Source: a virus
IMG/VR virus record: IMGVR_UViG_3300036760_000101
Coordinates: 1 to 54,244 of that record
Reading direction: 5' to 3' (one strand)
Length of the DNA stretch: 54,244 nucleotides
This document shows, piece after piece, positions 26,795-54,244 of this stretch (positions within the stretch are counted from its first letter, which is position 1; each line of letters starts with the position of its first letter). The position numbers were made by a program, and so were the translations under genes. Below the pieces are notes generated by a model. The model had not been told where the DNA came from. It did no database searches and saw nothing but the letters and a program-made list of their open reading frames with translations.

Positions 26795-26823
26795 AGTATA
26801 TCATACTTTTTTGGAAATGTCAA
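26795..26823 (-). promoter_or_regulatory. Leftward sigma70-type promoter, extended -10
   Basis: On the minus strand, TTGACA (26823-26818) and TATACT (26800-26795) are separated by 17 bases, and TGA directly precedes the -10 box. The first bases of the spacer (TTTCCAAA) are shared with the promoter at 33808-33836. The predicted start is near 26788, just ahead of the repeat-protein gene. Confidence 0.78.
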
Positions 26824-33708: not shown

Positions 33709-33891
33709 TTATTCATGGTTTTTACAGAAAAATGGTTGTTCATATTCCAAAACATTCCTACCGCATTCAGGACAAACGAATCCTTCCCTTAGCCTTGGAG
33801 TTCTTTTACTATAACATATTTCTTTGGAAATGTCAAGGTCTATTTCTTCTGGAAATACGGCTTCATTAAATAAATCTACCAAATCTTTCAT
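33709..33891 (-). CDS. Small zinc-finger protein with promoter inside its gene
   Basis: The protein has 60 residues. The C-terminal half has VCPECGRNV and FFCKNHE, a C-x2-C plus C-x2-H site. The N-terminal half is acidic (MKDLVDLFNEAVFPEEIDLD). A GAGG site precedes the ATG. A strong leftward promoter at 33808-33836 overlaps codons for residues about 19-28. Confidence 0.55.
   Translation of the reverse strand: MKDLVDLFNEAVFPEEIDLDISKEICYSKRTPRLREGFVCPECGRNVLEYEQPFFCKNHE
33808..33836 (-). promoter_or_regulatory. Leftward promoter within a coding region
   Basis: On the minus strand, TTGACA (33836-33831) and TATAGT (33813-33808) have a 17-base spacer with TGT before the -10 box. The spacer start TTTCCAAA equals that of the promoter at 26795. 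It would transcribe the small genes at 33695-33410 independently of the long early transcript. Confidence 0.65.
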
Positions 33892-37388: not shown

Positions 37389-37418
37389 TTGACATAATAC
37401 TACCCCATATGTTATACT
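37389..37418 (+). promoter_or_regulatory. Rightward promoter, extended -10, at the start of the late block
   Basis: TTGACA (37389-37394) and TATACT (37413-37418) have an 18-base spacer, and TGT directly precedes the -10 box. Transcription would start at about 37425, which is the A of the first ATG. This is the only strong promoter ahead of the lysis and packaging genes until 48288. Confidence 0.78.
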
Positions 37419-42970: not shown

Positions 42971-43188
42971 TAAAAATAGAGAAATATTTTTATCATATTT
43001 GGCTGGAATTTTTGATGGTGAAGGTTCTATATTTAATTCTTAAAAAGAAACAGGCTGAATGTGTCTTGAAGCTTAGAAAAAATATAGATTTTTATAGCTT
43101 TAGGGGATTTAAGGCTATACCTAAAAATATATTAAAAGAAAGAGATAAGTTATTTCTATTATGCAAGAAATACAACAAGCAATCATAA
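42948..43188 (+). pseudogene. Relic of a LAGLIDADG homing endonuclease
   Basis: A short ORF at 42948-43043 encodes FLSYLAGIFDGEGSIFNS and then stops; LAGIFDGEGSI is a clear LAGLIDADG motif. In the next frame from 43042, KKQAECVLKLRKNIDFYSF and KNILKERDKLFLLCKKYNK read like the usual C-terminus of such enzymes, ending at 43188 inside the large terminase start. The catalytic middle is missing and the frame is shifted, so the gene has decayed. It lies exactly between the small and large terminase genes, a common insertion place. Confidence 0.8.
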
Positions 43189-44567
43189 ATTATTCAACCG
43201 ATGATTGTGCTACCCTTAAAAGATTTACGGAATCAGACGCAAGGGTAAGAGGAATAAGGGGAGTAATTGGTTCTGGGAAGTCCTCTGTTTGCGTGTGGGA
43301 ATTAATAAGACGTGGACTTGAGCAAGCTCCAAGCACACTTGACGGTATAAGAAAGACCAGGTGGTTTATTGTTAGAAATACCTATATGCAATTAAAGGAC
43401 TCCACCATAAGGACTGTACTTGAGTGGCTACCAGAGAAGTATTTTGGTGTATACCACAAGACAGACCATAACTATAATATAACAAAATTTAAAGATACCC
43501 ATATTGAGTTTTGTTTTAGGGCATTAGATAGACAAGAGGACATAAGAAATCTTCTTTCTGTTGAAATGACTGGATGTTGGATTAATGAAGCAAGGGAAGT
43601 ACCGAAGGGAATTTTAGATGCTGTTGATTCTCGAATACCACGATTTCCTTCTATGAAGGAAGGTGGTGCTACCTGGTGCGGTATGATTATGGACACCAAC
43701 TCACCAGACGAAGATTCATGGTGGTACAGTACATTTGAAAAGGGAAACATTCCGAAGGGTTGGGAACAATACGTTCAACCATCGGCATTTTCTCCAGATG
43801 CGGAAAATATAAAGAACTTACCACCCAAGTATTACGATAATATGTTAGCTGGTAAGGATGCTGATTTTATAAAAGTATATTTAGAAAATCAATATGGATT
43901 TGTTAAGGAAGGAGACCCTATATTCAATGCTACATGGGTAGACCATTTGCATATGGCGAAAGAAATATTAAACTTCCTTAAGGGATTTGATTTAATTATA
44001 GGAATGGACTTTGGATTAACACCTGCTGCTGCCATTACACAGTTTAGTCCAACTGGACATTTTAATATTCTTGATGAACTTGTATCGGAAGAAATGGGAG
44101 TTCAGAGATTTATAAGAAATAAAATGAAACCTCTTATTTTGAATAAATATAAAGATGCAAATATACTTGTAATAGGAGACCCTAATGCTGTTAATGTTAG
44201 AAGTCAAGTAGATGAGAAGACATGCTTTGAAGAACTAATGAACTCAGGATACCATGTTAGGCTTGCTCCAAGTAATGCACCAGCAGCAAGAATAGGTGCG
44301 ATACAATTATTTTTGAGTGAGTTGAAGGAATATGGTCTTCCATCACTACAAGTTTCACCAAATTGCAAGGTAATAAGGAAAGCCTTTAATGCTGGATATG
44401 TTAAAGACAAGAAAGGTGAACCTAAGAAAAATAAATATTCACATATAATGGAAGCTGTATCTTATGCAGCATTACATTTTCAAGAACTATTAAAAAGAAT
44501 GGGTGGGAGGTCTGGCACTGTTAGGGGAAAAAGTACATACCAAAGACCAACGGTGGCAGGATATTAA
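43161..44567 (+). CDS. Large terminase subunit
   Basis: The protein has 468 residues. Walker A is GVIGSGKSS (34-42), Walker B is GCWINEA (138-144), and the nuclease part has D283 in IIGMDFGLTP, D340 in LVIGDPNAV and H428 in KYSHIMEA. It pumps DNA into proheads and cuts it. The start ATG overlaps the end of the homing-endonuclease relic, and no clear AGGAGG precedes it, so expression may have been rewired by that insertion and decay. Confidence 0.88.
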   Translation: MQEIQQAIINYSTDDCATLKRFTESDARVRGIRGVIGSGKSSVCVWELIRRGLEQAPSTLDGIRKTRWFIVRNTYMQLKDSTIRTVLEWLPEKYFGVYHKTDHNYNITKFKDTHIEFCFRALDRQEDIRNLLSVEMTGCWINEAREVPKGILDAVDSRIPRFPSMKEGGATWCGMIMDTNSPDEDSWWYSTFEKGNIPKGWEQYVQPSAFSPDAENIKNLPPKYYDNMLAGKDADFIKVYLENQYGFVKEGDPIFNATWVDHLHMAKEILNFLKGFDLIIGMDFGLTPAAAITQFSPTGHFNILDELVSEEMGVQRFIRNKMKPLILNKYKDANILVIGDPNAVNVRSQVDEKTCFEELMNSGYHVRLAPSNAPAARIGAIQLFLSELKEYGLPSLQVSPNCKVIRKAFNAGYVKDKKGEPKKNKYSHIMEAVSYAALHFQELLKRMGGRSGTVRGKSTYQRPTVAGY

Positions 44568-44568
44568 T

Positions 44569-44709
44569 ATGAAAAAAGACTACGGGAAATTTGATTTCAA
44601 CAAAAGGGACTGGAAGATAACAAAGAAAGAAAAATCATACTATGAAAATTTTGATGGTATTTTTAGAAAAGAAAAAGGGGTAAATAAGAATGACAAGCCT
44701 AAAGAATAA
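44569..44709 (+). CDS. Small charged protein
   Basis: The protein has 46 residues from ATG 44569 (MKKDYGKFDFNKRDWKITKK at the start); longer frames lie inside the terminase gene. It is basic with many aromatics. It starts one base after the terminase stop and overlaps the ATP-grasp start by 20 bases. Function unknown. Confidence 0.52.
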   Translation: MKKDYGKFDFNKRDWKITKKEKSYYENFDGIFRKEKGVNKNDKPKE

Positions 44710-45943
44710 AAGTGTACTGATTTATGATTTTGGTCTCTGTTCTGAGAACGCCGTTAGGCTTGCAAGGGATTTTGAATCAGTTTTTTATTACACACCTTGG
44801 GAAGCAGCGTTTCCCAAATCATCTTATTCTTTGATAGGAAAGAATTTTGAGGGAGTTACAAGGGTAGATAGTTTTGAGGATTATAAAAAAGAAGTAGACC
44901 TAATATGTTTCTTCGATACATATTGTTCAGATATAGTTAGGGACTTAAGGGAAGATGGTTATAGAGTATTCGGTGCTAGTGCATCAGAGGGACTTGAGAA
45001 TAATAGACATCAAGCCAAAAAGTACATGGAAGAGGTTGGTCTTCCAGTTCAACATTATGAATTAATTAAAGGATATGAAGCACTTGAGGAATATTTAAAG
45101 AAACATAATCATGTTGTTGTAAAGTTAAATATGTTTCGTGGAGATGCTGAAACATTCATGCACGATACATGGAATACTACCCAGGCTCAATATATGGGTG
45201 ACTTACTTATGAAGTTAGGAGCCAAGGCAGAAGAAATAGAATTTTTAGTAGAAGATGAAATTAAGGGAGTTGAACCTGGATATGATGGTTTTGTGGTAGA
45301 TGGACAATATTCAAATGTGTCAATGTATGGATATGAAAGAAAAGGAACTGGCTACATAGGAAAGGTTATGCCATATACGGAATTGCCTAAACCACTAAAA
45401 ATGGTTAATGATAAAATAGCTCCGTATTTTAAAAAATATGAGGGTAGAACATTTTTCTCAACAGAGGTTATGGTTAAGGAAGATGGAACTCCATATCTTA
45501 TTGACCCAACTGTTCGTTGTCCAATGCCATGTCCAACCGCTATAGCACTTGAGATGTATGAAAACTTTTCTGAATTTATTTGGGAAGCTGCTGATGGAAA
45601 TTTAATAGACCTGGAACCACTATACAAATATGGTGCTGGTATATGTGTTGATTCTGATTGGGCTGAGCATCATTGGACACATATAGATTTTGATTATAAA
45701 TATAGACAATGGATTAAATTTAGGATGGCTTGTAAGATAGGAAAGGAATATTATGCACTACCTGGATTTAATAGTGTCTGTAGTGTTATAGGATTAGGAA
45801 ATACCATTGATGAATGTATTGACAAAATAGAGGAAATAGTTCCTACTTTAAAAATAAGAGAATCAACCTATACAGTTTCTGGCTTGAGGGAAATATTGGA
45901 TGATGTTATTCCCGAAGGTCGTAAACATGGAATAGAGTTTTAG
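44690..45943 (+). CDS. ATP-grasp ligase-like enzyme in the packaging module
   Basis: The protein has 417 residues. An N-terminal Rossmann-like part (NKSVLIYDFGLCSENAVRL) precedes an ATP-grasp core: K145 in HVVVKLNMFRGDAETF, EFLVEDEIKG near 185-193, and E259, D272 and R276 in FFSTEVMVKEDGTPYLIDPT. The order resembles PurD and carbamoyl-phosphate-type ligases, which join a carboxylate to an amine with ATP. No purine genes stand nearby; the neighbours are terminase and portal. The substrate is unknown and could be a virion protein or a metabolite. Confidence 0.72.
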   Translation: MTSLKNKSVLIYDFGLCSENAVRLARDFESVFYYTPWEAAFPKSSYSLIGKNFEGVTRVDSFEDYKKEVDLICFFDTYCSDIVRDLREDGYRVFGASASEGLENNRHQAKKYMEEVGLPVQHYELIKGYEALEEYLKKHNHVVVKLNMFRGDAETFMHDTWNTTQAQYMGDLLMKLGAKAEEIEFLVEDEIKGVEPGYDGFVVDGQYSNVSMYGYERKGTGYIGKVMPYTELPKPLKMVNDKIAPYFKKYEGRTFFSTEVMVKEDGTPYLIDPTVRCPMPCPTAIALEMYENFSEFIWEAADGNLIDLEPLYKYGAGICVDSDWAEHHWTHIDFDYKYRQWIKFRMACKIGKEYYALPGFNSVCSVIGLGNTIDECIDKIEEIVPTLKIRESTYTVSGLREILDDVIPEGRKHGIEF

Positions 45944-46153: not shown

Positions 46154-48079
46154 ATGAACTTCCATGAATTAGAAGAATTATCAAGACTTGAATTGGATAG
46201 TCTTGGAACTATACTTAAAAATGAATTTGAATATACCAAGATAGTAAGGCGTGATAAAGAAGTTGAATGGGTTCAGAATCTTAGGCAATATCGTGGTCAA
46301 TATGACCCAGAAATATTATTGAAGATTCACAAAAATGCTTCCCAGGTCTTTCCTAAATATACAAGATTTTGGTTAAAGAAATGGAAAGCTATATTACAGA
46401 ATATAGTCCTACCCGATAATGATAAGAATTGGGGAATATCACCAACCCCCAAGCCAATGGTTGATGTAAAGGATTTACAAAATATAATTGACCAATTAGA
46501 AAAATCTCAAGTTGAAGCTACTCCAGAAAATATAGAGAAAGCTGTATATGAATTTGCTAAAGCAAGATGTAAGAATATGGAACTTGAAATAGAAGACCAG
46601 TTAAGCGATATTAAATATGAAATTGTTATTAAGGACACTATTGATTCTGGCTTGAAGTTTGGTACTGGTATTGTAAAGGGTACAATGTCCAAGAAAGATA
46701 CGTCTAATGAAATCGTATCAGAAGGTGGAGTATTTAAACAAGTTACAAAAACTATACATGTTCCATATATTGAGAATGTTAGGATATGGGATTATTACCC
46801 TGATATGGGAACTACCGATAAGGAAACGGTAGAATTTGAATGGGAAAGAATGGTTCTCACAAAACACCAACTAAGGGAACTTGCCGATAAGGAAGGTTTC
46901 TTTGGTGACTTAATCCTTCAACATTTAAAGGAAAATCCCAAGGGGGATGCCAAATACGAGCAATGGGAAATTGACCTACAGGCTATGGACATAAATAAAT
47001 TTAAGGATATGAGAACTAATAAATATGAAGTTTATGTCAGGCATGGTTATCTTGATATTGAAGAAATGAAATATGCAGGCATTACAGTAGATGAAGAAAA
47101 TGTAGAATTTGAGGTAATGTCAGATGTTTGGATATTGGGAAGTAGGGTAATTAAAGTTGAGGAAAGTCCATTTCTGGAACCACTATATCATTTGTTTTAT
47201 TTTGAAAAGGACGAAACAAGTATTTTTGGTAGTGGACTTCCTAAAATAACAAGAGATAGTCAACAGACTCTTTGTTCTGCTATTAGAATGTCTCTCGATA
47301 ACGGTGCTATTTGTGCTGCCCCTCAAGCAGAGGTTAATATAGAACTTCTTGACCAAGGTGAAGACCCAGATGATTTTAGACCAAGAAGGATATGGAAAAG
47401 GTGGGGAAGGGGCATTGACGCACAGATTCCCGCAATAAGGGCTATAGAATTTAACTCACATATACCTGAATTGTTAAGTATAGTTGATAAGGCTGAAAAG
47501 ATAGCGGAAATGGAAATATCATTTTCTATGTATCCCCAGGAAGAAATGGAAACTCCAACAAGACAGAACTTGGCTGAATCTTCCATGAAGGCATCCTCTA
47601 AGGTTATAACCATTAAGGATGTTGTTAAGGCATTTGATGATTGCAATAAGAGCGTAATTAAGGCTCTTTATGATTGGAATATGGAATATAATAAGAAAGA
47701 ACATATTAAGGGTGACTTTAATGTGGAAGCTAAGGGCGTTGCTACGTTACTTTCTAAGGAAATTCTAACTCAACGTGTTGGATATTTCAGCCAGACCCTA
47801 TCTCCAGAGGAAAGAATGTATATTAAGACTGGTGAGTTCCTGAGACAGAAGGCTAAAATACTCGATTTGGATGTTGATGAATGGCTTAGAACTGACAAAG
47901 AAGTACAAGAGATGCAGGAAGCCAGTAGAGACGCTGAGATGGAAGCTATAATGAAAGCTAAAGCCAAGTCAGATGTAGCCTATACGGACTCTAAGGCTGC
48001 CCATATGAACGCTAAGGCTGAAAAAGCAGTCAAGGATTCAGACCTGGATGTAATTAATACCCTAAAGGGAAGCCAATAG
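46154..48079 (+). CDS. Portal protein
   Basis: The protein has 641 residues. The opening (ELEELSRLELDSLGTILKNE), the early YDPEILLKIHKNASQVFPKY, a mid-part YHLFYFEKDETSIFGSGLPK and a long helical C-terminus fit the large portal proteins of short-tailed phages with N4-gp56-type capsids. It forms the ring through which DNA enters and leaves. Position between terminase and capsid genes supports this. The end is Ala/Lys-rich helical (EAIMKAKAKSDVAYTDSKAA). Confidence 0.8.
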   Translation: MNFHELEELSRLELDSLGTILKNEFEYTKIVRRDKEVEWVQNLRQYRGQYDPEILLKIHKNASQVFPKYTRFWLKKWKAILQNIVLPDNDKNWGISPTPKPMVDVKDLQNIIDQLEKSQVEATPENIEKAVYEFAKARCKNMELEIEDQLSDIKYEIVIKDTIDSGLKFGTGIVKGTMSKKDTSNEIVSEGGVFKQVTKTIHVPYIENVRIWDYYPDMGTTDKETVEFEWERMVLTKHQLRELADKEGFFGDLILQHLKENPKGDAKYEQWEIDLQAMDINKFKDMRTNKYEVYVRHGYLDIEEMKYAGITVDEENVEFEVMSDVWILGSRVIKVEESPFLEPLYHLFYFEKDETSIFGSGLPKITRDSQQTLCSAIRMSLDNGAICAAPQAEVNIELLDQGEDPDDFRPRRIWKRWGRGIDAQIPAIRAIEFNSHIPELLSIVDKAEKIAEMEISFSMYPQEEMETPTRQNLAESSMKASSKVITIKDVVKAFDDCNKSVIKALYDWNMEYNKKEHIKGDFNVEAKGVATLLSKEILTQRVGYFSQTLSPEERMYIKTGEFLRQKAKILDLDVDEWLRTDKEVQEMQEASRDAEMEAIMKAKAKSDVAYTDSKAAHMNAKAEKAVKDSDLDVINTLKGSQ

Positions 48080-48287: not shown

Positions 48288-48317
48288 TTGACTTAAAACT
48301 ATTAAATGTGTTATAAT
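48288..48317 (+). promoter_or_regulatory. Internal late promoter, extended -10
   Basis: TTGACT (48288-48293) and TATAAT (48312-48317) have an 18-base spacer, with TGT immediately before the -10 box. Transcription should start near 48324. It drives the 54-residue gene and the structured region before scaffold and capsid, allowing strong separate expression of the head genes. Confidence 0.8.
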
Positions 48318-48340: not shown

Positions 48341-48505
48341 ATGAATAAGGTAGAGAAGAAAGAAGTTGTATTTCAGGACGGTTTTTACGGTAAATTAATT
48401 CTCGGACTCGAAGACGGAAATTTTATCTATCTTAAAAAAGAAGAAACCATTAAGGACAAGAAAGTAATAAGACAAATACTCGAAAAAGTCCTTAAGGCAT
48501 TATAG
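48341..48505 (+). CDS. 54-residue protein upstream of structured RNA
   Basis: MNKVEKKEVVFQDGFYGKLI then LGLEDGNFIYLKKEETIKDK with a helical end. GAGG lies upstream of the ATG. A 16-nt leader separates it from the predicted transcription start. Its transcript runs into the structured region, so it may be a leader protein that helps control the head genes. No family recognised. Confidence 0.55.
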   Translation: MNKVEKKEVVFQDGFYGKLILGLEDGNFIYLKKEETIKDKKVIRQILEKVLKAL

Positions 48506-48782
48506 TATAGCCTTATCCACCATGTGTGGAAAAAGATTAGCCAACCAGCAATGGTAGGTGGAAACTAAAAGGTTACGACAAACAAGGGGAAATCTACTGA
48601 GTACCCTGACAAATCGTAAGCCCTGGTAGATAGGGAAAGCGGTAGAAATGTCGCATAAAATATATAAAAAAGTGGTAGGTATCTGGATTAAGCCTTAGTC
48701 CATAACCCTACCCCAATAGTATCGAGAAAATCGAGCTATAGAAACGGCTACTTACAGCGAGCCTAAATTCTATAGCTTTTTT
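48506..48782 (+). ncRNA. Candidate structured RNA upstream of scaffold and capsid genes
   Basis: This segment of about 277 nt has no ORF but many complementary pairs: TCCAC/GTGGA near 48516-48530, CGACA with TGTCG enclosing ATCTAC with GTAGAT, TGGATTAA with TTAGTCCA (one G-U pair, 3-nt loop) within GGTAGG/CCTACC, and a final terminator hairpin. It begins after the 54-residue gene and ends in a U-run. It could be a free small RNA, a packaging RNA or an attenuator. No known class was recognised. Confidence 0.58.
48734..48782 (+). terminator. Intrinsic terminator or attenuator ahead of scaffold
   Basis: AGCTATAGAA (48734-48743) pairs perfectly with TTCTATAGCT (48768-48777). An inner GGCT/AGCC pair caps the arm. 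Six U residues (48777-48782) follow, with TTTT two bases on. Being only 18 bases before the scaffold start, it must be read through, or leave most transcripts short. Confidence 0.75.
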
Positions 48783-48800
48783 GTTTTAAGGAGACAAAAA

Positions 48801-49688
48801 ATGTCAACTAAAGAAAAAGAAGAAGAAAAAGTAGAAACATTTGAAGATGTTTTTGCTGAGGCAGCAGAAGAACCAGAAGGCAACAAAGCCGAAGCTGGTA
48901 AATCTGACGAACCCAAAAAAGAGGAACCTAAAGAGGTTGAGCCTAAGAAGGAAGGTGAGGTTGAGCCTAAGAAGGAAGACGAGCCCAAAGTTGAGGACTA
49001 TGAACAAAAATACAAGTCCCTGCAAGGCATGTTTAATTCTGAGGCTGAAAAGAGACAGGCTTTAGAGGAAGAAGTTAAAAAACTCAAAGAGCCTAAGCCC
49101 GAAGAAAAGAAACCAGAACCTAAACCCGAAGAAGACAAGCCCGACCCTGAGTTAGATGAGTATTTGAAAGAATACGATACAATCGCTAAAAACGAATCTA
49201 AGCTCAGAAAAAAGGAACTCGCAGCACTAAAGACGGAGATTAAAAAGGAAATGGCAGAAGAATTAGGAGTACCTTTTAGGAAAATAGAGGAACTTCTAAA
49301 TACAAGAGATGAGGAAGCTGAACTTACCCATGTTGCTTCTATCTTAGATGCACATGAGGATTATGGTATTGCTTTCGATAGACCACAAGTTGAAGAATGG
49401 ATTAGTAAACTATCTCCACTAAAAAAGAGAGAATACGGTGCGATTCTCGGAGAAGGTAGCACGGAAGAAGTTGTTGAGCTATTAACTGAATATAAAAAAG
49501 CCAATAACATTTCTTTGAAAAAAGAGGAAGAATCCGATACTACCAATCAAGAAGAAGACGAAGAAAAAGAAAAGAAATTAAAGTCTATGGAAGCTGTCAA
49601 ACATAAGAAGACTCCTGTTGGTGATACTGCTAATAAAAAAGAGGATTACGAAGGAGCCTTTGATGAGGCAGCCAAAAAGAAAGATTAA
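48801..49688 (+). CDS. Scaffolding protein
   Basis: The protein has 295 residues and is extremely acidic and Lys/Glu/Pro-rich, with long helical parts (YEQKYKSLQGMFNSEAEKRQ; LRKKELAALKTEIKKEMAEE). This composition, size and place directly before the capsid gene are typical of scaffolding proteins. The N-terminal FEDVFAEAAEE and the C-terminal YEGAFDEAAKK are near copies of each other, possibly two capsid-binding peptides. AAGGAG precedes the ATG. Confidence 0.78.
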   Translation: MSTKEKEEEKVETFEDVFAEAAEEPEGNKAEAGKSDEPKKEEPKEVEPKKEGEVEPKKEDEPKVEDYEQKYKSLQGMFNSEAEKRQALEEEVKKLKEPKPEEKKPEPKPEEDKPDPELDEYLKEYDTIAKNESKLRKKELAALKTEIKKEMAEELGVPFRKIEELLNTRDEEAELTHVASILDAHEDYGIAFDRPQVEEWISKLSPLKKREYGAILGEGSTEEVVELLTEYKKANNISLKKEEESDTTNQEEDEEKEKKLKSMEAVKHKKTPVGDTANKKEDYEGAFDEAAKKKD

Positions 49689-49700
49689 CGGAGGATAAAA

Positions 49701-50708
49701 ATGGCTTATTCTGCAACTCTATACGGAGATATTTCCCCAAGGACAGCAGCCTATGTGGTTGTTGAACTTTTAAAGAGGGGTATGCCTTATTTGGTTCTTG
49801 AGAAGTTCGGTCAGGCAAAAGAACTTCCTATGAATAAAACACAGGCTATGAAATTTAGGAGATACGAGCATCTTCCATTGGCAACTACGCCTTTGGTAGA
49901 GGGTGTAACTCCCACAAGTACAAAACTAAGATACACCGATATTACTGCAATTCTAAGGCAGTATGGTGCTATCGTTGAAATTACAGACATCGTGGCTGAT
50001 ACCCATGAAGACCCGATAATTAAGGAATCAACGGTAATTATGGGTGAGCAAGCTGCAAAGACAGTTGAGACAATTAGGTTTAATGTTGTCAAGGCTGGCA
50101 CTAACGTATTCTTTGCTAACAGTACAGTAAGGGGTAGTGTTAATGTTCCTGTTTCTCTTGCAAAACAGAGAGCAGTTACAAGGGCGTTAGCACGACAGAA
50201 CGCTGTAAAAATTACATCAGTTGTTAGAAGCACACCAAGTTTCAATACTGAGAACGTGCTTCCTTCCTATATTGCTATTGCACATACCGATATGGATAGT
50301 GATATTAGGAGTATGCCTGGGTTTATAGATGTAAAAGATTACGGTCAGCTTCCACCTTACGAAGCCGAAATTGGTGCAGTTGAAACTTGTAGGTATCTGA
50401 CTACTTCAATAGCTCCTTATTGGGCTGACCAGGGTGCAACCGCTAACGGTAGTGGTGTTCAGATGCTTTATACAACAAGCAATAGTGCTTGTGACATATA
50501 TCCAGTAATTTATCTTGCCAGGGATGCGTTTGCAATAGTAGCCCTTAAGGGTAAATATGCTGTAACACCTACAGTTATTAATCCTGTCCCAAGTAAGTCT
50601 GACCCATTAGGTCAGAGGGGAAGCATCGGATGGAAAACCATGCAGACCGCAGTTATTCTTAATGACGCTTGGATGGCTCGTTTGGAATGTGCAGTTACCA
50701 GTTTATAA
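49701..50708 (+). CDS. Major capsid protein, N4-gp56 family
   Basis: The protein has 335 residues. TTPLVEGVTPTSTKLRYTDI, then ILRQYGAIVEITDIVADTHE and TNVFFANSTVR match the N4 gp56 family pattern, an HK97-type capsid fold. The C-terminus has SDPLGQRGSIGWKTMQTAVI and LNDAWMARLEC, also characteristic. GGAGG lies before the ATG. It forms the icosahedral shell. Confidence 0.9.
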   Translation: MAYSATLYGDISPRTAAYVVVELLKRGMPYLVLEKFGQAKELPMNKTQAMKFRRYEHLPLATTPLVEGVTPTSTKLRYTDITAILRQYGAIVEITDIVADTHEDPIIKESTVIMGEQAAKTVETIRFNVVKAGTNVFFANSTVRGSVNVPVSLAKQRAVTRALARQNAVKITSVVRSTPSFNTENVLPSYIAIAHTDMDSDIRSMPGFIDVKDYGQLPPYEAEIGAVETCRYLTTSIAPYWADQGATANGSGVQMLYTTSNSACDIYPVIYLARDAFAIVALKGKYAVTPTVINPVPSKSDPLGQRGSIGWKTMQTAVILNDAWMARLECAVTSL

Positions 50709-51039: not shown

Positions 51040-51366
51040 ATGTTACAGGAACTTTTTGCGGTAGGAAAGATTGTAGGTACTGGTTCCGCTATTCATGTTC
51101 ATCTTGGTTTTATTCCAAGATACGTCAGACTCTTTAATGCGTCAGATGCTACAGTTCCGTTCCTGGAATGGTTTCAGGGTATGCCAGCAGGTTACGCACA
51201 TAAAACGCTAATCAGTACAAAAGATTTAAGTTCCTATGCAGCAAGTGGTTGTATTAGTGAATATGCTGGTACTGATGCACAGGGTGATGGTGCTGGTTTT
51301 ACACTTGGAACAGACAGTGACCTTAATGGCTCAACGGATGTAATATTCTATTTGGCATTGAGGTAA
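51040..51366 (+). CDS. Tandem-duplicated small structural protein, copy 1
   Basis: The protein has 108 residues and is closely related to the next gene. Shared blocks include PRYV-(R/K)-LFN, DAT-x-P, HKT-x-IST and AG-x-DAQGDGAGFT, ending DVIFYLALR. It is beta-rich and suited to capsid decoration. AGGAGG precedes the ATG. Being after the capsid gene supports a cement or surface role, which is inference. Confidence 0.65.
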   Translation: MLQELFAVGKIVGTGSAIHVHLGFIPRYVRLFNASDATVPFLEWFQGMPAGYAHKTLISTKDLSSYAASGCISEYAGTDAQGDGAGFTLGTDSDLNGSTDVIFYLALR

Positions 51367-51370
51367 AAAC

Positions 51371-51694
51371 ATGATACAGGAACTTTACTCTATAGGACAA
51401 GTTGTAGGTACTGCTGCTGCTATTAATGTTCATTGTGGATTTGTGCCAAGATATGTAAAGTTATTTAACGTTACAGATGCTACACTTCCACAAATGGAAT
51501 GGTTTGATAGTATGGCAGCAGCCCATTCACACAAAACTTATATTAGTACCAATGATTTTTCATCTTATGCTGCTACTGGAATTACTGCCTATGCTGGTAG
51601 TGATGCACAGGGAGACGGTGCTGGTTTTACAATCGGTACTGATACACAGATGAATGGCATCGGAGACGTAATTTTTTATTTAGCACTTAGGTAA
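51371..51694 (+). CDS. Tandem-duplicated small structural protein, copy 2
   Basis: The protein has 107 residues, the second copy of the pair. It starts 4 bases after copy 1 and no AGGAGG stands directly before it, so translation is probably coupled. It differs mainly in surface residues and has one deletion near residue 70. A strong terminator follows, so the pair ends a head-gene transcript. Confidence 0.65.
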   Translation: MIQELYSIGQVVGTAAAINVHCGFVPRYVKLFNVTDATLPQMEWFDSMAAAHSHKTYISTNDFSSYAATGITAYAGSDAQGDGAGFTIGTDTQMNGIGDVIFYLALR

Positions 51695-51701
51695 TTTTAA
51701 A

Positions 51702-51731
51702 AAGAGGGATGGAAACATCCCTCTTATTTTC
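51702..51731 (+). terminator. Strong intrinsic terminator after head genes
   Basis: AAGAGGGATG (51702-51711) pairs perfectly with CATCCCTCTT (51716-51725) around a GAAA tetraloop, followed by ATTTT. It separates capsid-region genes from the adaptor and tail genes and would lower expression of the latter. Confidence 0.88.
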
Positions 51732-51755
51732 CATAGAAAAAATCAGGAGGATAAA

Positions 51756-52079
51756 ATGTTTGAAGTAGAAGAAGTAAAAAAAGAAGAAGGGATTAAAGAA
51801 CCAACAGAACAGGGTATGGTTCAGAAACCAAAAGAGGAAGATAAGAAAGTTAAAATCATAATCGAGGAACAAGAAGGGGACGAAAACTCTGGTGATGTGT
51901 TTGTAAGCGTAAATGGTTACGGTATGACAATCAAGAGAGGATTTCCTGTAGAGATTCCTGAGAGTTTTGTTGATGTGCTAAGAAAGGCAGTTATTACCAA
52001 AATGACACAGGATAAGGAAACTGACGAAATTAAGTATCGTGACGTTCCCCGATTCAATTTCAGAATAGTTAATGAGTAA
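51756..52079 (+). CDS. Small head-completion-like protein
   Basis: The protein has 107 residues. A disordered acidic/basic start (VEEVKKEEGIKEPTEQGM) is followed by KVKIIIEEQEGDENSGDVFV and SVNGYGMTIKRGFPVEIPES, a core that I recall from proteins between capsid and adaptor genes in many phages. AGGAGG precedes the ATG. A head-completion role is likely, not proven. Confidence 0.62.
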   Translation: MFEVEEVKKEEGIKEPTEQGMVQKPKEEDKKVKIIIEEQEGDENSGDVFVSVNGYGMTIKRGFPVEIPESFVDVLRKAVITKMTQDKETDEIKYRDVPRFNFRIVNE

Positions 52080-53660: not shown

Positions 53661-54244
53661 ATGGCTTGGGTAACTTTTACTTGTGCTGGTACAATTTTTG
53701 ATGCTACCCTTGCTACCAATGCAATAGCAAATGGGTGGACAAGATGTGAGACTGGTTATCAATGGATTAAACCAGCAAATTCAAATAATGTATTTTATGG
53801 AAGGATTACACAATTAGGTGCTATAAGGATTTATACTGAGGTTAATGCCACTGGTTACTTATATACAATTTATGAACCAGCAGTCAGGGAGTCCTATGAT
53901 ATGGGTTCACATACAGGAATAGGATTAGGATGGACAGGTTGGGGTAATCCTATTTATTGGGCTGGAAGAAGCGAAAATGATGTTGCAAGGGACTATACTT
54001 TCAATGGTTGGATAGGTAGTAATTCCATTTTTGGTAATGTAAGCCCTGACCCTTCAATTACAGGTGCATCTACATTTCCAATTTTTGCTTGTGTAACAAA
54101 AGGCTTTGATGGAATTGATCGTTTAGTTGCATTAGATATGCTTCCCAATGGTGGTGCATATCGTTGTAATTCACGTCTTATATATGCTACAGATTCACTT
54201 GCTTATTTTAATGGTTTACAAGTTGGTGGACTTGGAACGTGGGG
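53661..54244 (+). CDS. Tail/fibre-like protein, 5' part of the gene split by the window ends
   Basis: AAAGGAG lies ahead of the ATG at 53661. The protein starts MAWVTFTCAGTIFDATLATN and continues with IRIYTEVNATGYLYTIYEP and WGNPIYWAGRSENDVARDYT. It runs off the end in the frame that is open at base 2; joined, it has 307 residues and stops at 595. Its general style resembles the tail gene at 19476. Confidence 0.8.
   Translation, partial: MAWVTFTCAGTIFDATLATNAIANGWTRCETGYQWIKPANSNNVFYGRITQLGAIRIYTEVNATGYLYTIYEPAVRESYDMGSHTGIGLGWTGWGNPIYWAGRSENDVARDYTFNGWIGSNSIFGNVSPDPSITGASTFPIFACVTKGFDGIDRLVALDMLPNGGAYRCNSRLIYATDSLAYFNGLQVGGLGTW
53990..54244. repeat. Terminal overlap, right copy (circular join)
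   Basis: This is the second copy of bases 1-255. Differences at 54016 (G) and 54117 (G) against A at 27 and 128 change Asp to Gly and Asn to Asp in the encoded protein when read left copy to right copy. Confidence 0.93.

Follow-up and report, generated by a model that had tools for sequence, protein, structure and literature searches.

A candidate protein-held transcription attenuator in the 5′ leader of the scaffold and capsid genes of an uncultured phage

Introduction

Phage late-gene control is mostly understood from a few models, namely Q, N, put and the phage RNA polymerases. In lambda, the late genes lie behind a promoter, a short leader and a terminator (PR′, 6S RNA and tR′) and are expressed by regulated readthrough. 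The role of Q in this control has been described previously (PMC7171158). The put RNA of HK022 is about 70 nt long and consists of two stem-loops just behind the early promoters (PMC9378689), while at the IsrK locus of Gifsy-1 a phage promoter and a terminator give a short RNA and partial readthrough gives an mRNA (PMC4825925). Hairpins that compete with a terminator are known as well. The RAT of the BglG/SacY (LicT) proteins is a hairpin of 23-30 nt which partly overlaps an intrinsic terminator and is held by the protein (PMC4347634; PMC9981650), and the ANTAR dual-hairpin antiterminators (EutV, NasR, AmiR) place a small hairpin just 5′ of an intrinsic terminator with which it is mutually exclusive, their targets being composed of two hairpins with six-base loops carrying A at position 1 and G at position 4 (PMC3369931).

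The window analyzed here is the whole 54,244-nt stretch of the uncultured-phage record IMGVR_UViG_3300036760_000101, for which a structured RNA and an attenuator had been proposed ahead of the scaffold and capsid genes. Judging from comparison with related loci, this region is probably the 5′ leader of the scaffold-capsid transcription unit, ending in a transcription attenuator that a protein may hold.

Results

Gene order and related loci

The late region of the window runs rightward and includes an ordinary large terminase (43161-44567), a head-tail adaptor or portal-type protein (46154-48079), a 68-aa ORF located between the portal-type gene and the leader, a scaffold-like gene (48801-49688, + strand) and the major capsid gene (49701-50708, + strand), the last being assigned to PHROG 1357, major head protein, with E = 5e-51. 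The scaffold-like gene, which lies just ahead of the major head protein gene and has homologous ORFs in the relatives, is preceded by the Shine-Dalgarno sequence AAGGAGA (48788-48794, + strand); its product is acidic and rich in Lys and Glu and had no PHROG match. IMG/VR was scanned with the capsid, portal and terminase and with a sequence pattern, which resulted in about 50 distinct loci with the region upstream of the scaffold. A DNA-level search of the region against 50,697 cultured phages returned no match.

Several other features of these genomes were observed. Between the terminase and portal genes of the window there is a CDS (44690-45943) for a 417-aa protein with a weak ATP-grasp match, and behind the capsid gene there are tandem paralogues (51040-51363 and 51371-51694; 107-108 aa, 66% identical), L053 likewise having two copies. 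The final 120 bases of the window also occur at positions 135-254, the 150-base end has no exact match, and the ORFs at the end (53661-54242) and the start (2-595) encode nearly identical products, so that the window either is a complete genome whose ends (1-254 and 54125-54244) form an imperfect terminal repeat or carries a tail gene duplicated in tandem. LAGLIDADG-like ORFs, coding for putative homing endonucleases, adjoin the head genes in L035 (6509-6958 and 8626-8940, both on the − strand) and in L036 (135-764, − strand). The capsid gene of L017 is in several pieces. A capsid protein of this phage clade (56% identical) is also encoded on the contig L086 (JAHEYD010000005.1), which has been assigned to an archaeal Nitrosotalea MAG and is probably a misbinned phage contig.

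Promoter and leader layout

The dedicated extended −10 promoter of the original prediction is present at 48288-48317 (+ strand), slightly 5′ of the segment 48341-48790 to which it had been ascribed. It is of the sigma70 type (TTGACT-N18-TATAAT with TG before the −10), and sites with at least 11/12 consensus positions plus the TG number 4 in the window versus 0-2 (mean 0.25) in 20 dinucleotide shuffles. The promoter is conserved before the same genes in L005, L002, L036, L053, L054 and L017, and in L003 as the −10 element only. Three other strong extended −10 promoters were noted in the window, at 33808-33836 (−), 26795-26823 (−) and 37389-37418 (+), two of which read into leftward replication genes while one opens the rightward region.

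The other parts of the predicted layout were found as well. The promoter is followed by a short ORF of 54 aa (48341-48505, + strand; ORF54) and by a non-coding stretch, expected to be about 277 nt long and actually 281 nt (48506-48786), with no + strand frame open for more than 24 codons; the check for a hidden conserved ORF crossing it did not refute the original idea. A terminator consisting of a hairpin and a T-tract precedes the scaffold gene, the first T-run ending 18 nt before the ATG at 48801. The non-coding stretch is indeed highly complementary, with a folding z of −4.2 and none of 200 shuffles equally stable; with the antiterminator and terminator hairpins described below removed, the excess stability is smaller yet still there (z = −2.7), and the entire 467-nt leader has z = −2.9. 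Behind ORF54 there are two additional hairpins in a variable insert (48508-48570, + strand; alignment A3 and folding) which is missing in L005, then a structured core (48571-48655) and then a stem-loop (48672-48713, + strand) whose sequence is unconserved, a stem-loop in this place being also present in L003, L036 and L002.

A promoter ahead of the scaffold is common in the clade. In its distant members, L012 to L031, only the promoter is found before the scaffold, at a distance of 51-54 nt with nothing in between. In the subclade of the window, the promoter and the scaffold are separated by a leader that contains a small ORF and a terminator hairpin and varies greatly in sequence (L005, L002, L036, L003, L053, L017, L008, L095, L059, L067, L068, L057 and others), L017 showing a minimal form with the terminator almost directly behind the promoter. 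In L056 and L080, the scaffold promoter sits inside a terminator hairpin, just 5′ of the scaffold, so upstream transcripts should be stopped there and the promoter's own transcripts should begin within the hairpin, as in a terminator-promoter insulator.

Two mutually exclusive hairpins

Directly behind the stem-loop, nascent-RNA folding, covariation and a three-strand permutation test point to a 24-nt antiterminator hairpin (48716-48739, + strand) with the sequence AUAGU-[A]-UCGA-GAAAA-UCGA-GCUAU and 9 bp. It consists of an outer helix (48716-48720 with 48735-48739), a bulged A (48721), an inner helix (48722-48725 with 48731-48734) and the loop GAAAA (48726-48730). The intrinsic terminator (48733-48787, + strand; −16.7 kcal/mol) has a stem spanning 48735-48776 with an internal loop, in which 48735-48743 pair with 48768-48776 and the inner stem 48746-48749 with 48760-48763, followed by TTTTTTGTTTT (T-tract at 48777-48787). 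It was not picked up before the scaffold by a simple terminator scan because its stem is long and interrupted.

Since the antiterminator uses the 5′ arm of the terminator, the two hairpins, hereafter called the switch, are mutually exclusive. In the nascent RNA folded up to 48757, the bases 48735-48739 pair with 48716-48720 with a probability of 0.87-0.99, and once the RNA is complete, their partner is the terminator 3′ arm (probability about 0.8-0.9). The sequence GUANCGARAAAAUCGRGC is common to the window, L005, L002, L036 and L003, just 5′ of the terminator. When ten copies were aligned as tandem hairpins (YYGA-AAAAA-UCRR plus the terminator), 98% of the cells were paired and 7/12 pairs were changed on both sides, and T-tracts of 5-7 U stand behind the hairpin in all ten site-1 cassettes listed, including those from unrelated phages. 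As in a transcription attenuator, an intrinsic terminator lies between promoter and gene, and a covarying alternative hairpin shares a strand with it; the 3′ part of the region thus appears, from covariation and mutual exclusivity, to be a terminator/antiterminator pair, in line with the attenuator predicted ahead of the scaffold and capsid. A reading of the conserved GTAYYGAAAAAATCRRGC motif as a phage promoter was rejected because the halves of the motif covary with each other and one of them covaries also with the terminator 3′ arm.

Covariation of three strands

Many of the upstream folds are singly no more stable than shuffled controls, and for this reason the case is carried by covariation and recurrence. 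Covariance analysis across the homologous loci did find covariation, in keeping with the original prediction. For this purpose, strand 1 was defined as the antiterminator 5′ strand, strand 2 as the terminator 5′ arm and strand 3 as the terminator 3′ arm. The three strands read AUAGU/GCUAU/AUAGC in the window, UAGUU/GACUA/UAGUC in L003, GGGU/GCCC/GGGC in L168, UAGGU/GCCUG/CAGGC in L170 and CGGU/GCCG/CGGC in L176, and the additional U of strand 1 in L003 has its counterpart in an additional A of strand 2.

Strand 1 forms 49/55 pairs with its own strand 2, compared with a mean of 37.8 when strands are dealt among phages, and no permutation out of 20,000 gave as many pairs (p < 5e-5; p = 0.0016 after collapsing to 8 lineages). 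Strand 2 forms 84/88 pairs with its own strand 3, compared with 53.8 with a strand from another phage. For L169, this test used a terminator strand shifted by one base, an error of register that lowers the score and does not raise it. In the antiterminator alignment of 12 sequences, 94.4% of the cells are paired, versus at most 44% in slid controls; 6/9 pairs show double changes, and the cells with double changes number 24 versus 10.3 in shuffles. The U-G pair beside the bulged A, the GA/UC pairs and the A-rich loop are nearly invariant, and therefore this pattern suggests that the apex of the antiterminator is a recognition site on a hairpin whose other pairs vary freely.

The structured core

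The original prediction of a structured RNA is supported for the segment 48571-48655 (+ strand), where compensatory changes relative to L005 were found, with the restriction that this domain is limited to two genomes. The core comprises hairpin A/D (48573-48578 with 48614-48619 and 48587-48589 with 48604-48606), hairpin C (48621-48624 with 48632-48635), hairpin E (48639-48644 with 48649-48654) and a loop-loop pairing B of six pairs between the loops of D and C (48592-48597 with 48626-48631). The identity to L005 is 77% in the core, 72% in the preceding ORF and 38% in the following 58 aligned nt; the core contains one frame-breaking gap, and the mismatches are spread across all three codon positions. 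All 25 core pairs hold in both the window and L005, and both bases differ in six of them, of which A and E contain one each, C two and the loop-loop helix the remaining two, one becoming U-G. As these double changes come from one genome pair, they represent few events. The loop-loop score was reached by 0/400 shuffles for the window and by 11/400 for L005.

The core was found in none of the other loci: a pattern search of viral contigs gave only L005, the covariance model R3 matches only the window and L005, and such close relatives as L002 and L017 lack it. It may be an accessory domain of these two leaders, serving either as an input domain of the switch or as a stabiliser. In L003, the loop-loop test gave one pair of low credibility. 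A kissing-loop design seen by eye in L036 was not recovered by the automatic test and is not claimed.

The leader ORF and its DUF2292-like neighbors

A search of ORF54 against Pfam DUF2292 (PF10055, YezD) gave no match. Its relatives score 18.2 bits (L003), 20.9, 16.1 and 18.7 bits, all below the curated Pfam cut-off of 22 bits, which only the ORF of L176 exceeds with 24.4 bits. ORF54, which carries the motif FYGK..x..EDGNxxYLKKEETIK, is grouped with a DUF2292-like set on the basis of alignment A5 and a profile. The AlphaFold model of ORF54 is poor (mean pLDDT 70, pTM 0.35), and the predicted structure matched no solved fold.

A DUF2292-like ORF with the motif (F/Y)(Y/F/H)GKxTIxFxxGKI lies upstream in 11/12 copies of site 1, at a distance of 19-314 nt, the exception being L173 with a DUF4926 ORF ahead of the switch. 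When the profile of DUF2292-like ORFs was run over all open frames of the loci fetched by then, nothing else was convincing except for an ORF in L095, which was outside the training set and was picked up at E = 4e-7; the switch of L095 has the same layout. L017, on the other hand, lacks both a DUF2292-like ORF and a good antiterminator and keeps the terminator. In L169, L171 and L176, the DUF2292-like ORF follows or overlaps the preceding gene and a separate promoter is not visible; the one from L169 had no match among 50,697 cultured phages at E = 1.

Control of the switch by the position of a ribosome on the leader ORF was considered and is not general, because the distance from the stop codon to the antiterminator ranges from 19 to 314 nt. 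The leader ORF before the scaffold in L068 codes for a 47-aa Cys4 zinc-ribbon protein weakly resembling small zinc proteins, among them RNA polymerase subunit P and anti-TRAP, which again hints at a possible regulatory role of leader ORFs in the pre-scaffold slot.

The second site

A second site (51702-51755, + strand), composed of a hairpin, GAAAAAATC (51736-51744) and a Shine-Dalgarno sequence, precedes the head-region gene at 51756 (107 aa). In L002, L003, L035, L053 and L054, it consists of a full antiterminator-type hairpin, a second hairpin and a Shine-Dalgarno sequence with no T-tract, while in the window and L005 only GAAAAAATC is retained from the conserved hairpin, beside the Shine-Dalgarno sequence. 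In L035, the end of one of the LAGLIDADG-like ORFs overlaps the second-site hairpin. Since the T-tract is absent, the hairpin must have a role other than antitermination there or be a relic. If a single protein acts at both sites, it may couple termination before the scaffold to translation of the gene at 51756.

Occurrence in other phages

Two pattern scans found the switch in phages of other kinds, namely L168, L169, L170, L171/L172, L173 and L176. L168 is a podovirus-like record with a portal protein 25% identical, and in L169 and L170 the switch stands ahead of other scaffold-like genes. The gene behind the switch in L171/L172 is taken here to be a terminase, and the records L176 and L173 are presumably Mu-like. 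A 33-position model of the switch, R2, scores 33.8-43.5 bits in this group of unrelated phages; in the window and in the near-complete L003 and L005, it found no convincing site beyond the two known. L008, L095 and L059 have unrelated sequences with the same layout, i.e. a small inner hairpin and an outer helix with the terminator 5′ side.

Not all members of the clade have the switch: the terminator is present in L053 and L017 with the site-1 antiterminator lost or degraded, and site 1 of L054 keeps the hairpin with the T-tract absent. A third site in the genome of L003 (L048, 12920-12952) and the matches in L174, L175, L177 and L178 were attributed to chance, being located inside or at the start of ORFs or having no terminator. 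An R2 match in an archaeal MAG has 28.9 bits, equal to the score of the chance match L178. A search with the 42-nt element against phages and plasmids gave only short chance matches.

Discussion

Proposed mechanism

The conservation of the promoter, the terminator, the exclusive hairpins, the covariation of three strands and the association with a DUF2292-like ORF were established here by comparison of sequences, and the arrangement is best read as protein-controlled antitermination of the head genes by a putative trans-acting factor. RNA polymerase would start at the promoter 48288-48317, transcribe the DUF2292-like ORF and reach the switch. By default, the more stable terminator would form, transcription would stop at 48777-48787 and a leader RNA of about 460 nt would be released. 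Where the original prediction considered an abundant small phage RNA, it is this leader RNA that default termination would yield. A factor binding the conserved GAAAAAAUC apex would hold the antiterminator, so that the terminator could not close and the polymerase would continue into the scaffold and capsid genes. The binding, the direction of control and its timing are the steps that we infer.

Because the ORF is linked to the switch, the DUF2292-like protein encoded just upstream is proposed as the regulator and is the most likely candidate for binding the GAAAAAAUC apex, an assignment which we make tentatively; a host protein or another phage RNA-binding protein is the alternative. Head genes would then be expressed only after a small protein made early from the same transcript had accumulated. 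A broader and rather speculative idea, which we consider doubtful, is that the DUF2292/YezD-like proteins form a new family of RNA-binding antitermination proteins with the target RGU-[A]-YYGA-AAAAA-UCRR-GCY, that gene and target are exchanged among phages as a module gating late genes, and that the second copy is a target at the level of translation.

Other explanations

It is unlikely, though conceivable, that the unit is a moron-like cassette, an autonomous set of promoter, small gene and terminator between portal and scaffold in which the terminator merely closes the unit and the hairpin strengthens it. The window does show a complete transcription unit added between genes that are adjacent in relatives, as in the definition of a moron, and SPP1 genes 8-10, bracketed by transcription signals, also lie between the portal region and the scaffold (PMC6316719); distant relatives have the portal, one small gene, the promoter and the scaffold without the cassette, and both the structured RNA and the ORF differ between close relatives. 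However, the covariation of strand 1 with the terminator 5′ arm is needless for a terminator that only closes a unit, and no separate promoter is visible in L169, L171 and L176. Moreover, cassette and switch are compatible, as the unit may be a moron carrying the switch. We regard as improbable a post-transcriptional element, in which the role of the tandem hairpins is to protect mRNA 5′ or 3′ ends or determine where they lie, or to control translation, not termination. Such an element would need no overlap of the hairpins, which an attenuator does need, and site 1 has T-tracts of 5-7 U in all ten cassettes listed, unrelated phages included; it would nevertheless fit the same hairpin pair lying right before the Shine-Dalgarno sequence without a T-tract at site 2, and the hairpin without a T-tract at site 1 of L054.

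Processive antitermination, with a put-like nascent RNA or a promoter-loaded Q-like factor for which the terminator is a point to be overridden, appears very unlikely. The gene logic of a constitutive promoter, a terminator and late genes is that of the lambda late genes, and the core at 48571-48655 could contact the polymerase as put does, but most relatives lack the core, put RNAs consist of two long stem-loops close to early promoters (PMC9378689), and there would be no need for antiterminator and terminator to overlap locally. The packaging RNA considered in the original prediction, i.e. a trans-acting structural RNA like the phi29 pRNA which multimerises via complementary loops, is extremely improbable: complementary hairpin loops could pair between molecules and the locus does lie beside the head genes, yet the terminase is a normal one, the core is limited to two genomes, close relatives such as L002 and L017 do not have it, it is absent where relatives share these head genes, and the switch is the one part with wide conservation.

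Comparison with known systems

A compact termination switch before head genes was defined by sequence comparison alone and recurs in unrelated uncultured phages, for which the R2 model allows a search in other genomes; it suggests that virus genes are subject to a kind of on/off control not recognised so far. The DUF2292 family is barely named in the open literature, and the switch offers DUF2292-like proteins a concrete and testable function.

Like lambda PR′-tR′, the window has a promoter, a leader and a terminator, then late genes; it differs in that Q loads at a promoter DNA element, while the signal proposed here is an RNA hairpin overlapping the terminator. The arrangement of promoter and terminator, with a short RNA versus readthrough, resembles the IsrK locus, although IsrK is a trans-acting regulator of the translation of the long form. 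The SPP1 morons 8-10 occupy the same slot of the head operon and are likewise accessory genes bracketed by transcription signals, but they are not related to the genes here, and their description includes no terminator/antiterminator switch (PMC6316719). A 24-nt hairpin overlapping a terminator before late genes does not correspond to the HK022 put as defined.

The absence of a nameable RNA class, as originally predicted, was confirmed by an Rfam search, which gave nothing at the gathering threshold in the window, L002, L003, L005 and L036. The best sub-threshold match, RF02980 (freshwater-2), shares the order of five-base-loop hairpin, second hairpin, U-rich stretch and Shine-Dalgarno sequence, but scores 16.4 bits against a cut-off of 49.9 (E = 5.7) with the second hairpin mostly unaligned. 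With the BglG/SacY RAT, the 24-nt hairpin of the window shares the size range and the overlap with the terminator. The RAT has two internal loops and a different consensus, whereas the loop here is AAAAA/GAAAA with a single bulged A, and no CAT-RBD protein (PF03123) was found in the seven phage records searched, the controls matching in 4 genomes, which leaves room for a host protein. As in the ANTAR elements, a small hairpin excludes the adjacent intrinsic terminator; unlike them, the window has one hairpin with a five-base A-rich loop which departs from the ANTAR loop rules, and a search for the ANTAR domain (PF03861) gave no match, nor did it in the controls. We therefore rate the hairpin of the window as a putative new antiterminator element that belongs to neither RAT nor ANTAR, with a distinct recognition loop and a DUF2292-like protein as its proposed partner.
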